Source: an uncultured Neomegalonema sp.
GTDB taxonomy: Bacteria; Pseudomonadota; Alphaproteobacteria; Rhodobacterales; Rhodobacteraceae
Assembly: GCA_937958625.1 (NCBI GenBank)
Contig: CALGNO010000031.1
Coordinates: 1-38,387, forward strand
Reading direction: 5' to 3'
DNA: 38,387 nt
A program made the translations under genes and the position numbers. The notes under the pieces are model-generated. The model was not told the DNA's origin, searched no databases, and saw nothing but the letters and a program-made list of their open reading frames with translations. Below are positions 3,664 to 36,944 of the stretch, one piece after another. Numbering within the stretch: the first letter of the stretch is position 1; each line of letters starts with the position of its first letter.

Positions 3664-4045
3664 TATACTTCCTCCACTTCCGGACTGCCGCCATGGCTGA
3701 CGGTCAGAGGGGAGCGAAAGTTACAGATTAAACGTCTTGAGCCGTCTAAACGCGCCGCCGCTTGGAAAAGTTTCATCCTTTGCCAAATCAAGTTCCAAGC
3801 TGTGAGGGGCCAGCGCGGCGTTCTCGATACGCGGTCGATGGGCGATGGTAGCATAATCGGGAAGAATGGGCACCGGTTTTCCGCCCGAGAACGCGACAGG
3901 ACAAATAACGACAGATTTTGAAACGATCATTGATCGTGAAAAAGCTCTACGGCGAGGCGCAACGGAAAAGGGCGCACAACCGATGCTGCGCGCCCTTCAT
4001 GCGATGGTCGATGACCTTCGGGCCATGGCCCGGGGTTGTCTCGGG
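3664..4045. other. Intergenic region between receiver protein and leuD
   Basis: This 382-base stretch holds the leuD terminator near its right end and presumably the promoter of the minus-strand receiver-like gene. A 69-codon minus-strand frame at 3721-3930 (starting MIVSKSVVICPVAFSGG) is open, but it lacks a clear ribosome binding site and any family resemblance. I do not call it. Nothing else structured was recognised. Confidence 0.5.
3965..3999 (-). terminator. Rho-independent terminator of leuD
   Basis: Read on the minus strand just past the leuD stop, the arms AAGGGCGC (3990-3997) and GCGCCCTT (3968-3975) form an 8-base-pair stem. The loop is about 14 bases. The closing arm runs into a short T tract (CCCTTTTCC). 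Position and form fit an intrinsic terminator for leuD. Confidence 0.75.
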
Positions 4046-4660
4046 TCAGGTCGGCGCGAGCCAAGGCGTTGCATCGCGGCGTTTTGCTTCAAAGGCGTCG
4101 ATGCTGCCCTGTTTCTCCATGGTCAGGCCAATATCGTCCAGACCGTTCAGCAGGCAGTGCTTTTTGAAGGCATCGACTTCGAAGGCGATGGTGCCGCCAT
4201 CCGGTCCCTTGATTGTCTGGCTCTCGAGGTCGATGGACAGGGTCGCATTGGCCCCGCGCTCGGCATCTTCCATCAGCTTGTCGACATCTTCCTGGGGCAG
4301 AGCGATGGGCAGGATGCCGTTCTTGAAGCAGTTGTTATAGAAAATATCGGCGAAGCTCGGCGCGATGACACAGCGGATGCCGAAATCGAGAATCGCCCAG
4401 GGCGCGTGCTCGCGCGACGATCCACAGCCGAAATTATCCCCGGCAATCAGAATTTTCGCATCGCGATAGGCAGGCTGGTTCAGCACGAAGTCGGGTTTTT
4501 CGGTCCCGTCGTCGTTATACCGCATCTCGGAGAACAGCGCGACGCCCAGCCCGGTACGCAGGATCGTCTTCAAATACTGTTTGGGGATGATCATGTCGGT
4601 ATCGACATTGATTTGGGGCAGCGGCGCGGCGACGCCCTCCAGCTTGTCGAATTTATCCAT
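4046..4660 (-). CDS. leuD: 3-isopropylmalate dehydratase small subunit
   Basis: This is the small subunit of isopropylmalate isomerase, which with LeuC converts 2- to 3-isopropylmalate in leucine synthesis. From the ATG at 4660 ([16 protein letters not shown]) the product has 204 residues, close to the normal 200. The choice is supported by a GGAGG ribosome site about ten bases upstream. The frame stays open to 4726, but that extension is unrelated to the family. Recognisable LeuD elements are [14 protein letters not shown], the [14 protein letters not shown] loop, and [11 protein letters not shown]. LeuC is not in the window, although leuC and leuD are often adjacent. A terminator follows the gene. 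The rhodanese gene lies 73 bases upstream on the same strand and may share its transcript. Confidence 0.97.
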
Positions 4661-13980: not shown

Positions 13981-14080
13981 TGAGACGTCGGCGCGAAGCG
14001 TCGACAAGCGCCGTTCCGCCCCCACGCGGCGGCGCTCCGCGCCACCCCTCGGAACGGCGCGTCTCTCGATTGAGAGACCG
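13981..14080 (+). repeat. Dispersed GC-rich palindromic repeat, copy A
   Basis: The core carries GACAAGCGCCGTT, then CCCCCACGCGGCGGCGCT, then GCGCCACCCCTCGGAACGGC. The outer parts GCGCCGTTCCG and CGGAACGGCGC are inverted relative to each other. The copy ends with its own small hairpin, TCTCTC-GATT-GAGAGA (14062-14077). The same core recurs in the same orientation at 36499 and 36831. Confidence 0.7.
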
Positions 14081-14189: not shown

Positions 14190-14261
14190 CTGGAAGCCCC
14201 GATACGCTTCCGGTCCTTGTGATGAGGATCGACACCCACCAGCGCGTTGCGCCCGTGGGTG
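14190..14261 (+). promoter_or_regulatory. Structured ffh leader with two hairpins
   Basis: Hairpin 1 (14190-14213) pairs CTGGAAGC with GCTTCCGG around an 8-base loop. Hairpin 2 (14233-14261) pairs CACCCAC with GTGGGTG and, inside, GCGC with GCGC around a GTT loop. The Shine-Dalgarno region begins a few bases later. Function is not known. Confidence 0.4.
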
Positions 14262-14287
14262 CGTTCGTCGTTTGAAGTGAGGCGCGC

Positions 14288-32501: not shown

Positions 32502-32517
32502 GTGAGTGGAGCAGACC

Positions 32518-35500
32518 ATGAAAATCGAGCGTTTCGACACGTCCGCGCGTAAAGACGCCTATGCGGGCATCCCCTTCAAGCTGACCGCCAGTGAAATCCG
32601 TAACCCGGATGGCTCGGTCGTCTTCCGTCTGGACGAGGTCGAAGCGCCCGAACAATGGTCGCAGGTCGCCTGTGACGTGCTGGCCCAGAAATATTTCCGC
32701 AAGGCCGGGGTGCCCGCCGCGCTCAAGCGCGTGAAGGAAAAGGGCGTGCCCGAATGGCTGTGGCGCTCCGAGGCCGATACCCGCGCCCTCGCCAAACTGC
32801 CCGAAGAAGAGCGCACCGGCGGCGAGACCACCGCAAAGCAGGTCTTTGATCGTCTTGCCGGGACGTGGACCTATTGGGGTTGGAAGGGTGGCTATTTCAC
32901 CGCCGAGTCCGACGCCAAGGCCTATTTCGACGAAATGCGCCGGATGCTGGCCCTGCAAAAGTCTGCACCCAACTCGCCCCAGTGGTTCAATACCGGCCTG
33001 CACTGGGCCTATGGCATCGACGGCCCGAGCCAGGGCCACCACTATGTCGATTTCAAAACCGGCAAGATGGTCAAGGCGTCGTCGTCCTACGAACACCCAC
33101 AGCCCCATGCCTGCTTTATCCAGTCCGTTGCCGATGATCTGGTCAACGAGGGCGGCATCATGGACCTCTGGGTCCGCGAGGCGCGCCTGTTCAAGTACGG
33201 CTCCGGCACCGGCACCAACTTTTCGTCCCTGCGCGGCGAGGGCGAGCCGCTTTCCGGCGGTGGCAAGTCCTCCGGCCTCATGAGCTTTCTGAAAATCGGC
33301 GACCGGGCTGCGGGCGCGATCAAATCAGGCGGCACCACGCGCCGCGCCGCCAAGATGGTCATCGTCGATGCCGATCACCCCGACATCGAGACCTTCGTCG
33401 ACTGGAAAGTCATCGAAGAACAGAAAGTCGCCTCGCTGGTGGCCGGGTCGAAACTGCACGAACAGCACTTGAATGCTGTCATGCAGGCCGTGAAAAGCTG
33501 GGATGGCACCATCGAAGCCGCCTACGATCCCAAGCAGAACACCGCCCTGAAGGACGTCATCAAAGCCGCCCGCAAGGTCCATATCCCCGAAAACTACATC
33601 CAGCGCGTGCTGCAATACGCGCGTCAGGGCTATGAGAGCATCGAGTTCCCAACCTACGGTCTCGACTGGGATTCCGACGCCTATCTGTCGGTCGCGGGCC
33701 AGAACGCCAACAACTCGATCCGTGTCACCGACGAATTTCTGACCGCCGTGAAAGAAGAGCGCGACTGGGATCTGATCGGTCGCCGCTCGGGCAAGGTCCA
33801 CCGGACCATCGAGGCCAAGGGCCTGTGGGACAAGGTCTGCCACGCAGCATGGTCCTGCGCCGATCCCGGCATCCAGTACCACGATACGGTCAATGACTGG
33901 CACACCTGCCCGGCCTCGGGCGAGATTCGCGGCTCGAACCCCTGTTCCGAGTACATGTTCCTCGACGACACCGCCTGTAACCTCGCCTCCCTGAACCTGC
34001 TGGCCTTTACCGACAAGGAGGGCCGCTTCGATCTGGCCGGGTACGAGCACGCCGTGCGCCTCTGGACCGTGACGCTGGAGATCAGCGTGCTGATGGCGCA
34101 GTTCCCGTCGGAGTCGATTGCGCAGGGCAGCTATGACTTCCGCACCCTCGGCCTCGGCTATGCCAATATCGGTGGCCTGCTGATGACCATGGGTCTCAGC
34201 TACGATTCCGACGAGGGCCGCGCCCTTTGCGGCGCGCTCTCGGCTGTGCTGACCGGGGTGTCCTACGCCACCTCCGCCGAAATGGCCGGCGAATTGGGAG
34301 CCTTCCCGCGTTACGAGGAAAACGCCGAGCATATGCTGCGCGTCATGCGCAACCACCAGCGCGCGGCGAACGGCGCGACCTCGGGCTATGAAAAGGTCTG
34401 CACCCCCCCCGTCCCCCTCGACCACGCCAACTGCCCCGACCAGAAACTGGTCAAGGCGGCGGTGGCGGCCTGGGACAAGGCGGTCAAGCTGGGCGAGAAA
34501 CACGGCTATCGCAATGCCCAGTCCTCGGTCGTCGCCCCCACGGGCACCATCGGTCTGGTGATGGATTGCGACACGACCGGCATCGAGCCGGACTTTGCCC
34601 TGGTGAAGTTCAAGAAACTCGCGGGCGGCGGTTATTTCAAGATCATCAACCGCGCCGTCCCTGCGGCCCTCAAGACCCTCGGTTACACCGCCGAGCAGTC
34701 CGAAGAGATCATCAACTACGCCGTCGGTCGCGGCACCTTGAAGGACGCCCCCGGCATCGACCACGACGCCCTGCGCACCAAGGGTTTCGAAGATGCCCAG
34801 ATCAAGGCCGTCGAGGATGGCATGGCCACGGCCTTCGACATTCGCTTCGCCTTCAACCAGTGGACGCTGGGCGAGGACTTCTGCATCAAGACCCTCGGTC
34901 TCGATGCTGCCCAGATGATGGACCCGGAATTCAACCTGCTGCGCGCCATCGGGTTTTCGAAATCCGAGGTCGAGGCCGCAAACCTGCACGCCTGCGGAAC
35001 CATGACGCTGGAGGGCGCGCCGCACCTCAAGGACGCGCATCTGCCCGTCTTCGATTGCGCCAATCCCTGCGGCAAGATCGGCAAACGCTATCTGTCGTGG
35101 GAGAGCCACATCAAGATGATGGCGGCGGCGCAGCCGTTCATCTCGGGCGCGATCTCTAAGACGATCAACATGCCCAACGATGCCACGATCGAGGATTGCA
35201 ACGACGCCTATATGATGTCCTGGCGTCTGGCGCTGAAGGCCAATGCGCTCTACCGCGATGGCTCGAAACTCAGCCAGCCGCTATCGACGCAGCTGCTCGA
35301 GGACGATGAGGACGAGAGCGATCTGCAAGAGGCCATCGGGGCCAACCAGCCCGCCGCCATGCGCGCCGAGGCCCTGGCCGAGCGCATCGTCGAAAAGATC
35401 ATCTACCGCGACCGGGCCGTGCGCGAGCGCGAAAAGATGCCCCAGCGCCGCAAGGGCTATACCCAAAAGGCCGTCATCGGCGGGCACAAGGTCTACCTGC

Positions 35501-36168
35501 GCACCGGTGAATACGAGGATGGCCGCCTTGGCGAGATCTTCATCGACATGCACAAGGAGGGCGCTGCCTTCCGCGCGATGATGAACAACTTCGCCATCGC
35601 CGTGTCGCTGGCCCTGCAATACGGCGTGCCGCTGGACGAGTTCGTCGAGGCCTTCACCTTCACCCGGTTCGAGCCTGCGGGCGTTGTGCAGGGCAACGAC
35701 TCGATCAAGAACGCCACCTCGATCCTCGACTATATCTTCCGGGAGCTGGCGGTCAGCTACGCGGGCCGCTCCGACCTTGCCCATGTCCAGCCCGAAGCCC
35801 CGCGCTTCGACGAGATGGGCGGCGGCGAGTCCGAAGACCCCGGCAAGCCCGCAACCGGCAGCGTGCCCATGGGCGAATTGCTCAAGCACCTGACCTCCAA
35901 CGGCTATACCCGCGGCCTTGCGCCCAGCTTTGGTGCGGATTTGGCCGTCGAAAGCGCCAGCCCGGTCGTGCCGGGGGCCAGCGACGTCGCAGAACGCGCG
36001 GCGGCGGCAACCAGCTCGCTGGGATCGGCGGTGATGGACAAGGTCGCCGAGGCCCGCATGAAGGGCTTCGAAGGCGATGCCTGTGGCGAATGCGGCAACT
36101 TCACCCTGGTGAGGAATGGCGCTTGCCTAAAGTGCAACACCTGCGGCGGCACGAGCGGGTGTAGTTGA
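32518..36168 (+). CDS. nrdJ: Vitamin B12-dependent ribonucleotide reductase (class II)
   Basis: This adenosylcobalamin-dependent enzyme reduces ribonucleotides to deoxyribonucleotides, with or without oxygen. From the ATG at 32518 ([15 protein letters not shown]) it has 1216 residues. GGAG lies upstream, and an in-frame ATG four codons earlier is less well placed. Active-site elements include the [20 protein letters not shown] segment and [14 protein letters not shown]. The C-terminus carries a cysteine tail, [20 protein letters not shown] and GGTSGCS, thought to shuttle electrons. The last codons (AGG, AAT, GCT, CTA) are untypical of the gene, and a second copy of the end exists at 36654. 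See the finding on the 3' end. Confidence 0.97.
36130..36166 (+). repeat. Direct repeat at nrdJ 3' end, left copy
   Basis: The 37 bases 36130-36166, starting AAGTGCAACACCTGCG, encode the terminal cysteine motif of NrdJ and are identical to 36675-36711. They form the left boundary of the inserted segment. Confidence 0.9.
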
Positions 36169-36182
36169 GGGAATTTAACAAC

Positions 36183-36210
36183 TTTAGCCGCGCAATATTG
36201 CGCGGCTAAA
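36183..36210 (+). terminator. Perfect palindrome after nrdJ, probable terminator
   Basis: TTTAGCCGCGCAAT (36183-36196) is followed directly by its reverse complement (36197-36210). It gives a long GC-centred stem flanked by A/T, 14 bases after the nrdJ stop. There is no long T tract on the plus strand. Confidence 0.6.
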
Positions 36211-36246
36211 AACTCGGACAAATCAAGTACGAATAGGTGAAAAGTT

Positions 36247-36495
36247 ATGTCTAAAGGACGCGATAGAATGGTTTCCCAGCGACCTGATGGAACTTGGGCG
36301 AACAAGAGAAATGATGCTGACCGCGCTTCAAGCGTTCATTCCACCCAAAAAGAAGCAGTCAAAAGCGCGAAAGAAATGCTGCTCAATCAAGGGGGTGGAG
36401 AGCTATCGACGCAAGGCCGGAACGGCCAAATTAGGAGCAAAGACACTATCGGTCGAGGGAACGATCCATTTCCGCCTCGCGATACCGAGCACTGA
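36247..36495 (+). CDS. DUF2188 domain protein
   Basis: The 82-residue protein matches the small DUF2188 family. RPDGTWANKRNDADRASSVHSTQKEAVKSAKEMLLNQGGGELSTQGRNGQI is followed by RSKDTIGRGNDPFPP, the characteristic NDPFPP end. Function is unknown. The base composition stands out: 57 of 120 bases are G or C in 36241-36360, against 43 of 60 in 35821-35880 of nrdJ. AGGTGA stands upstream of the ATG. The gene lies wholly between the two copies of the nrdJ 3' end, so it probably arrived as cargo of the inserted segment. Confidence 0.88.
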   Translation: MSKGRDRMVSQRPDGTWANKRNDADRASSVHSTQKEAVKSAKEMLLNQGGGELSTQGRNGQIRSKDTIGRGNDPFPPRDTEH

Positions 36496-36498
36496 ATT

Positions 36499-36630
36499 TC
36501 TGTGCTGAGATGTCGCCGCGTAGCGGTGACAAGCGCCGTTGGGCGCAAGCGGAGCGCCGCGCATAGCCCCCACGGGGCGGCGCTTTGCGCCACCCCTCGG
36601 AACGGCGCGGTTCTGAACTGAAATTCCGGC
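36499..36630 (+). repeat. Dispersed GC-rich palindromic repeat, copy B
   Basis: It carries GACAAGCGCCGTT, CCCCCACGGGGCGGCGCT and GCGCCACCCCTCGGAACGGC, then TTCTGAACTGAAATT. It is longer than copy A by an inner AGCGGAGCGCCGCGC segment. It lies inside the segment inserted at nrdJ. Confidence 0.8.
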
Positions 36631-36653
36631 TCTTCGCGCCAGTGAAAAACCGT

Positions 36654-36713
36654 GTGCGCAACGGTGCCTGCCTGAAGTGCAACACCTGCGGCGGCACGAG
36701 CGGGTGTAGTTAG
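36654..36713 (+). pseudogene. Orphan copy of the nrdJ 3' coding end
   Basis: GTGCGCAACGGTGCCTGCCT and the following bases encode [19 protein letters not shown] and a TAG stop, the same end as NrdJ, but with host-like codons CGC, AAC, GCC and CTG. The last 37 coding bases are identical to the functional nrdJ end 545 bases upstream. It has no start or upstream homology and is not expected to be expressed. Confidence 0.9.
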
Positions 36714-36715
36714 GA

Positions 36716-36734
36716 GCATTCGCAAAGCGAATGC
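36716..36734 (+). terminator. Hairpin after the orphan nrdJ end
   Basis: GCATTCGC (36716-36723) and GCGAATGC (36727-36734) pair perfectly around AAA, two bases after the orphan stop. It may be the original nrdJ terminator. No T tract follows. Confidence 0.45.
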
Positions 36735-36830: not shown

Positions 36831-36944
36831 GAGCCGCCCAGCGGTGACAAGCGCCGTTGGGCACAAGCGGAGCGCCGCGCACAGCCCCCACGCGGCGGCG
36901 CTCTGCGCCACCCCTCAGGGCGGCGCAGTTCTGAACTGAAATTT
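36831..36944 (+). repeat. Dispersed GC-rich palindromic repeat, copy C
   Basis: It is nearly the same as copy B over its whole length, in the same orientation, again ending TTCTGAACTGAAATT. It lies outside the segment bounded by the nrdJ end duplication. Confidence 0.8.

Follow-up and report, generated by a model that had tools for sequence, protein, structure and literature searches.

A doubled nrdJ 3' end and a candidate slot for imported one-gene cassettes in Alphaproteobacteria

We find that the DNA directly behind the stop codon of nrdJ is probably a recurrent slot for imported one-gene cassettes that enter by one-sided recombination, a reading to which we assign a probability of roughly 0.6. 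The case at the center of this analysis is a stretch of 38,387 nucleotides (the window) from an uncultured Neomegalonema sp. (genome G000), in which the 3' end of nrdJ is present twice with a small gene between the copies. An earlier note, made from the sequence alone, had described this arrangement; going beyond that note, we find the build in other genera too, as part of a broader cassette slot behind nrdJ.

The doubled nrdJ end in the window

The doubled end is real. As the earlier note had reported, the bases at 36130-36166 recur identically at 36675-36711 (37 nt), although not all of them are coding, since the last is the first base of the TGA stop codon of nrdJ (36166-36168). The claimed extension of the homology upstream was confirmed: both ends become alike at V-R-N-G (36109 and 36654), and an ungapped repeat of 67 nt with 85% identity and a spacing of 545 pairs 36109-36175 with 36654-36720. 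The nrdJ product matches PF08471 (2.1e-43), PF02867 (5.7e-123) and PF12637 in a Pfam search. The features of the locus, including the downstream copy of the nrdJ end, which we call the orphan, are collected in Table 1.

Table 1. Features of the nrdJ locus in the window
Feature	Coordinates	Strand	Evidence
nrdJ, class II (B12-dependent) ribonucleotide reductase	32506..36168	+	Pfam; start codon as in the ORF list
Foreign-looking nrdJ 3' end (AGG, AAT, GCT, CTA)	36109..36168	+	Repeat and codon usage
Orphan, probable original nrdJ 3' end, in frame, stop TAG	36654..36713	+	Repeat, homology, codon usage
Right joint, putative inserted segment / probable original nrdJ end	36653..36654	.	Start of homology
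Perfect 28-nt palindrome behind the nrdJ stop	36183..36210	.	Similar hairpin behind nrdJ of G011
DUF2188 cargo gene	36247..36495	+	Pfam PF09954 1.4e-20; PADLOC PDC-S16 7.2e-22
Dispersed repeat copy 1, within the putative inserted segment	36515..36625	.	Direct repeat, further copies elsewhere
Dispersed repeat copy 2, downstream of the orphan	36833..36943	.	Direct repeat

The DUF2188 gene and the dispersed repeat that had been placed between the two ends are both borne out. The DUF2188 ORF has a GC content of 0.518, and the segment 36169-36513 has 0.487 versus 0.632 for the whole window; across 761 windows of 345 nt (step 50) the GC content never falls to 0.487, and the minimum of 0.496 belongs to one that overlaps this segment. 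The dispersed repeat is a direct repeat of 111 nt (91%), and copies that are shorter or weaker occur in other parts of the genome, including other contigs, and also in congeners. It is found as well at 13981-14061 of the window. Separately, 14218-14269 of the window matches the ffh sRNA in Rfam (RF01793, 59 bits).

Codon usage points to which of the two ends is foreign. In the body of nrdJ, the codons of the fused end are AGG 0/62, AAT 7/38, GCT 5/146 and CTA 1/90, versus CGC 47/62, AAC 31/38, GCC 93/146 and CTG 54/90 for those of the orphan. The contrast drawn earlier thus holds at four sites; the fifth differing codon, a glycine codon, runs the opposite way (fused GGC 79/106, orphan GGT 15/106). 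The summed log ratio over all five is -10.8. Because the codons of the fused end are hardly used in nrdJ and those of the orphan are host-like, the orphan is most likely the native nrdJ end. A local copying event had been expected to show as a fused-type end in relatives and an orphan-type end in none. This pattern was not seen: at four of the five differing sites the best-scoring congener, G011, shares the codon of the orphan, and the other congeners are mixed, with AGG in G003 and G005. A palindrome like that of the window also follows nrdJ in G011, where the cargo is different and there is no orphan. The sequence after the orphan resembles DNA behind nrdJ in G004 and G012, a likeness to which we give little weight since this sequence is present several times in these genomes.

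A second case with a codon contrast comes from another family. In G685, the GC3 of nrdJ drops from about 0.8-0.9 to 0.2-0.5 across the last 60-80 codons, and the mean log adaptiveness is -1.39 for the fused end, -0.61 for the orphan and -0.32 for the nrdJ body; the fused end is AT-rich, and the orphan is closer to host codon use. In both the window and G685, then, nrdJ now bears the end that looks foreign by codon choice. In G390, G105, G066, G415 and G076 the two ends are not separated by codon use, and for G105, G066, G415 and G076 the fused end would be the incoming one by analogy. For G390 and G061, a conserved element that follows nrdJ in many genomes (described below) gives a second measure. 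It begins 49 nt after the orphan stop in G390 and 47 nt after it in G061, so that the orphan, not nrdJ, stands at the usual distance. By this distance, the orphan occupies the native place in these two genomes. Together, the window codons, G685 and the spacing in G390 and G061 support the proposal of the earlier note that the orphan is the original end, displaced by an incoming segment with its own copy.

Recurrence of the arrangement

We searched 394 genomes of the family with a 44-amino-acid nrdJ end, which matched in 364; 12 of these have two matches. In six, the second match lies just downstream of nrdJ (the window's genome, G390, G105, G066, G061 and G415). In the other six, it reflects an nrdJ end on another contig (G138 and G333) or is weak and elsewhere (G100, G217, G291 and G308). 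A DNA query, for which the first pass scored two candidates per genome, matched in 352 of the 394, and a recheck of the 53 genomes with at least two matches added G076; the other second matches in these 53 are short and elsewhere, and the sole good match in G357 is at a contig start. Overall, nrdJ followed by small low-GC cargo and an orphan end is present in 7 of the 394 family genomes, with a weak eighth case, G064, whose possible orphan is about 20 nt. On a 73-row NrdJ tree the seven orphans correspond to seven changes by a quick method.

In a class-wide sample of 385 genomes, 230 matched, five of them from the window's own family, and five have two matches. Besides the window's genome these are G685, with the complete nrdJ-cargo-orphan build; G730, where a tandem end has decayed; and G474 and G691, whose ends lie at contig ends. 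At the G730 locus (L252) the decayed copy lies 144 nt downstream and is followed by the apparent start of a further copy. Short nrdJ-end matches repeated about 760-840 bases apart, away from nrdJ, were observed at L129 (G356:C2, about 775728-777270) and L130 (G279:C14, about 348649-349508).

A search for further orphans at 40 loci from 37 genomes, placed around cassettes or nrdJ ends, gave only those already known in G076 and G105. In eight genomes whose downstream element is at least 260 nt away, only G390 has a residual orphan above shuffles, in a test that did not pick up the roughly 20-nt copy of G064. A chance test covered 1656 open frames, spurious ones among them, with a length of 200 codons or more, in 77 regions, several of which had been fetched for having a second nrdJ end. 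A frame's own end was copied within 1.5 kb downstream, to the stop or within 3 bases of it, for nrdJ in six genomes, for three other frames in two genomes and, in the window, for one spurious frame that overlaps nrdJ. The unselected rate for nrdJ is 7 of the 364 genomes with a detectable end. At four loci (L152, L155, L143 and L133, from G262, G311, G198 and G111) the contig stops 223-435 nt after the nrdJ stop.

The individual cases differ in size, joint and cargo. The end-to-end spacing is 545 in the window, 798 in G390, 477 in G105, 664 in G066, 1062 in G415, 389 in G076 and 933 in G685, and 155 with an N gap in G061. The orphan starts at -60 in the window, -123 in G390, -81 in G105, -86 in G066, -57 in G415 and -35 in G076; in G685 the two ends are clearly similar from about -140 on, and by eye the sequence turns GC-rich at about -200. 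None of the cases found has an orphan longer than about 200 nt. The nrdJ reading frame stays open in the orphan cases. The cargo is an M78 peptidase in G066, G415 and G685 (Pfam 3.3e-9, 1.2e-23 and 1.9e-6), an HExxH protein with no Pfam match over the cut-off in G390, a PDC-S38 protein in G105 (PADLOC 1.9e-32) and a small protein that we label KTSAK-like in G076, which like its relatives has no Pfam or PADLOC match. G415 has two ORFs between its ends, and its cargo frame continues into the orphan, as if the end of the cargo had been cut.

Two simple explanations can be weighed against these cases. In favour of a local duplication of the nrdJ end, with later divergence and the arrival of an unrelated gene, the two ends are identical in G105 (81 nt) and G415 (57 nt). 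We nevertheless reject local tandem duplication and consider it very unlikely: codon choice sets the two ends apart in the window and in G685, seven genomes have their cargo placed exactly between the ends, and related cargo recurs. An artefact in which metagenome assembly joined strain variants would suit the window's assembly, which has 258 contigs and 87% completeness, and the congener G006, which has two alleles on separate contigs. It is exceedingly unlikely given that the same build sits inside long contigs of G390, G105, G415 and G685, from assemblies of 2, 20, 20 and 3 contigs, respectively.

Cassettes, leader RNA and cargo behind nrdJ

To describe the native site, we drew 68 genomes from a ranking of nrdJ ends. 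A conserved element behind nrdJ (AGGCCGCAGGCA ... GCGGT ... AGCCTG, for example in L131 from G356 and L183 from G328) is present in 40 of them, beginning 38-212 nt after the nrdJ stop in 33 and 380-705 nt after it, with an intervening ORF, in seven; of the 28 genomes lacking it, five have less than 600 nt of sequence behind nrdJ. Its outer stem keeps pairing through two-sided changes across the 40 sequences, and the copy in L131 has no Rfam match at the gathering threshold. Members of seven seed cargo families occur in 7 of the 68 genomes. Some relatives carry one-gene cassettes behind nrdJ without an orphan, and most cassette genomes have no detectable orphan. The congener G006 offers a direct comparison: two contigs (L112 and L113) have the same nrdJ end, with one base different, followed by different one-gene cargo and then by an identical terminator and start of the next gene. 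A similar terminator lies 27 nt after the nrdJ stop in congeners G013 and G005, and we take this to be the probable empty site. Downstream of nrdJ in G216, L185 3003-3101 (minus strand) matches PYLIS_3 in Rfam (RF02510, 44 bits).

In some genomes a structured leader lies between nrdJ and the cargo. Eight leaders of 205-233 nt, located between the nrdJ stop and the cargo, align and fold alike (RNAalifold -25.5 versus a mean of -0.14 for 100 column shuffles), and 9 of their 21 pairs have changes on both sides. A sequence-only alignment of 21 leaders has a consensus energy of just -2.6 (0 for 50 shuffles), though the first helix retains compensatory changes. The leader has no match in Rfam 15. 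Using a model built from the eight leaders, with ten candidates scored per genome and strict filters, we find a single copy of the leader in each of 20 genomes out of 295 of the family, and all 20 copies lie directly behind the nrdJ stop. The model has no match in the window's genome, and among the orphan cases only G105 and G076 carry a leader. The genes behind the 20 leaders are KTSAK-like (7), of a third small family (3), DUF2188 (2), PDC-S38-like (2), Mrr_N-like (2; one by Pfam, one by eye) or another ORF (1), with none called in 3.

We read the distribution of the leader as horizontal movement of leader and cargo. On the 73-row NrdJ tree the leader takes 16 changes by a quick method, at least eight of them forced by starred branches; shuffling gives a mean of 17.7, with 98 of 500 shuffles as low as 16. 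Leader similarity goes with cargo type (0.315, p 0.0045), and its tie to NrdJ similarity is weak and non-significant (0.18, p 0.096). Given this weak tie, and since cargo type follows NrdJ similarity as well (0.29, p 0.018), part of the pattern may be vertical inheritance. Outside the orphan cases, the data do not support the nrdJ end travelling together with the leader: the nrdJ ends of leader genomes are no more alike than NrdJ similarity would predict (mean residual -0.02, with 97% of permutations at or above it).

The cargo belongs to families that recur across genera, namely DUF2188 (PDC-S16), PDC-S38 and M78 peptidases. DUF2188 has 47 matches in 42 of 295 genomes and lies directly behind nrdJ in at least four (the window's genome, G079, G083 and G322), a lower bound since nrdJ positions were compared for part of the matches. 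At 29 DUF2188 loci away from nrdJ, no repeat flanks the gene within up to 1.5 kb, and we reject the view that the repeats belong to the cargo. Among 20 proteins near nrdJ ends, Pfam recognizes no integrase and no nuclease, apart from one Mrr N-terminal domain standing alone; the cargo is DUF2188, M78, this Mrr_N domain or without a match, and eight proteins have no match in NCBIfam. Two cargo families match profiles (PDC-S16 and PDC-S38) from the PADLOC category of phage-defence candidates (PMC11514479), and the window's own cargo matches PDC-S16. On this basis we propose phage defence as a candidate role for the cargo, at the level of candidate status that such profiles confer.

Phages and plasmids with a lone nrdJ end were sought and the matches set aside. 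Two of three phage matches are annotated class II RNR genes and the third is weak; of 16 plasmid matches, the one examined, on Rhizobium plasmid pSU303_2 (L222, about 4001-4058), is a decayed nrdJ end with stops. A match from a viral collection, L221, begins with an nrdJ end followed by leader and cargo, and looks chromosomal to us. In Pseudomonas mendocina (L218), a KTSAK-like gene lies a few hundred bases behind what appears by eye to be an ORF for an integrase fragment.

Possible routes of entry and known parallels

In the orphan cases, the segment starts inside the nrdJ 3' end and continues through the stop codon, sometimes a leader, and a small gene to the orphan. We propose that such a segment would come from the nrdJ locus of another cell and recombine at one side through the conserved nrdJ end, with the other side joined by little homology. 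The route may be homology-facilitated illegitimate recombination, or else a break within the nrdJ end may undergo templated repair. When the nrdJ end and the downstream element both provide homology, exchange would leave no orphan, and cassettes without an orphan would be accounted for in this way. Transformation and gene transfer agents are possible carriers of the incoming DNA. Homology-facilitated illegitimate recombination, as described, likewise has homology at one end and an illegitimate joint at the other (PMC3240628); there it is a laboratory process, whereas for nrdJ it would be deduced from recurrent natural insertions at one locus.

One-sided recombination is favoured over a fixed attachment site because the orphan starts vary. 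Also speaking for it are the codon contrast in the window, the GC3 drop in G685, the orphan spacing in G390 and G061, the recurrence in other genomes, the G006 alleles, the cut cargo of G415, the scattered leader and the recurrent cargo. Against it, we identified no donor locus for the inserted segments, nrdJ ends do not travel with the leader outside the orphan cases, and most cassettes have no orphan. In addition, the joints cluster nearer the stop than free one-sided joining predicts; free joints do not explain the missing long orphans, and this leaves room for a targeted break.

The earlier note had likened the insertion to integrative elements at gene 3' ends, with homologous recombination as its alternative. 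In site-specific integration, a trans-acting integrase would use the nrdJ 3' end as the attachment site for small circles with a matching end. The repeat copies that reach the stop codon, the short units between direct repeats and a leader that is always behind nrdJ are as such integration predicts, and the regenerated and displaced ends of the analogy are indeed found. A constant crossover and an encoded integrase are not: the position at which the orphan begins changes between cases (from -35 to -123, with about -140 or beyond in G685), the 20 proteins include no integrase by Pfam, and in 76 regions (many about 16 kb, some less than 1 kb) no nrdJ-end copy reaches the stop beyond the small-cargo cases, so that these regions showed no larger element bearing such an end. 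We therefore regard site-specific integration as quite improbable, and with insertion points that differ between cases, homologous recombination fits better. Elements such as SGI1 at trmE, as reported, share with nrdJ the restoration of the host gene end by the insert, but they have an integrase and a fixed site (PMC8409611, PMC6531882), whereas the nrdJ units are 0.4-1.1 kb with no recognized integrase and a varying joint.

An architectural parallel is already known from fungal mitochondria, where gene-end hybrids with displaced native ends carry endonuclease cargo. These mobile-ORF hybrids are reported to affect atp6, atp9, cox2 and nad3 in Glomus and atp6 in Allomyces; the insert gives a foreign C-terminal end, carries one ORF and leaves the native end downstream, and the length of the replaced end varies (PMC3630166). 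The foreign C-terminal end and the displaced native end are both found at nrdJ. The mitochondrial ORF is an endonuclease in that account (PMC3630166), whereas Pfam recognizes no nuclease in the nrdJ cargo, and the nrdJ case further differs in its bacterial chromosome, single gene, many cargo families and leader RNA. A literature search, at the level of search results that were mostly unrelated papers, returned nothing on insertions at nrdJ ends.

This parallel raises the reading that these are nrdJ-specific homing cassettes, composed of nrdJ end, leader RNA and an exchangeable, often defence-like gene, with a dedicated insertion process in which a nuclease or RNA-guided cut in the nrdJ end lets the cassette and donor end be copied in. 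The leader RNA or the conserved end might guide insertion, and the cassette itself would encode neither an integrase nor a classical homing endonuclease. The shared mitochondrial architecture (PMC3630166), the clustering of insertion points near the stop and the shared structured leader speak for dedicated homing. We consider it unlikely, as Pfam finds no nuclease among the 20 scanned proteins beyond the lone Mrr N-terminal domain, and the leader is missing from most orphan cases. If true, homing cassettes would be the bacterial equivalent of the gene-end hybrids of mitochondria, and in function they would resemble integrons that have a housekeeping gene as acceptor. Integron gene cassettes, like the nrdJ slot, bring one small gene per unit to one acceptor position, with exchangeable cargo; the nrdJ unit differs in that the end of the host gene is part of it.

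Under our preferred reading of one-sided recombination, nrdJ would mark a chromosomal locus that repeatedly takes single foreign genes without recognizable mobility genes and, in some cases, swaps the C-terminus of a housekeeping enzyme for a foreign one. The slot offers a leader RNA that Rfam 15 does not contain, as well as a bacterial parallel, open to testing, to the gene-end hybrids of mitochondria. With two cargo families already candidates, it may also be a place to seek small defence genes.
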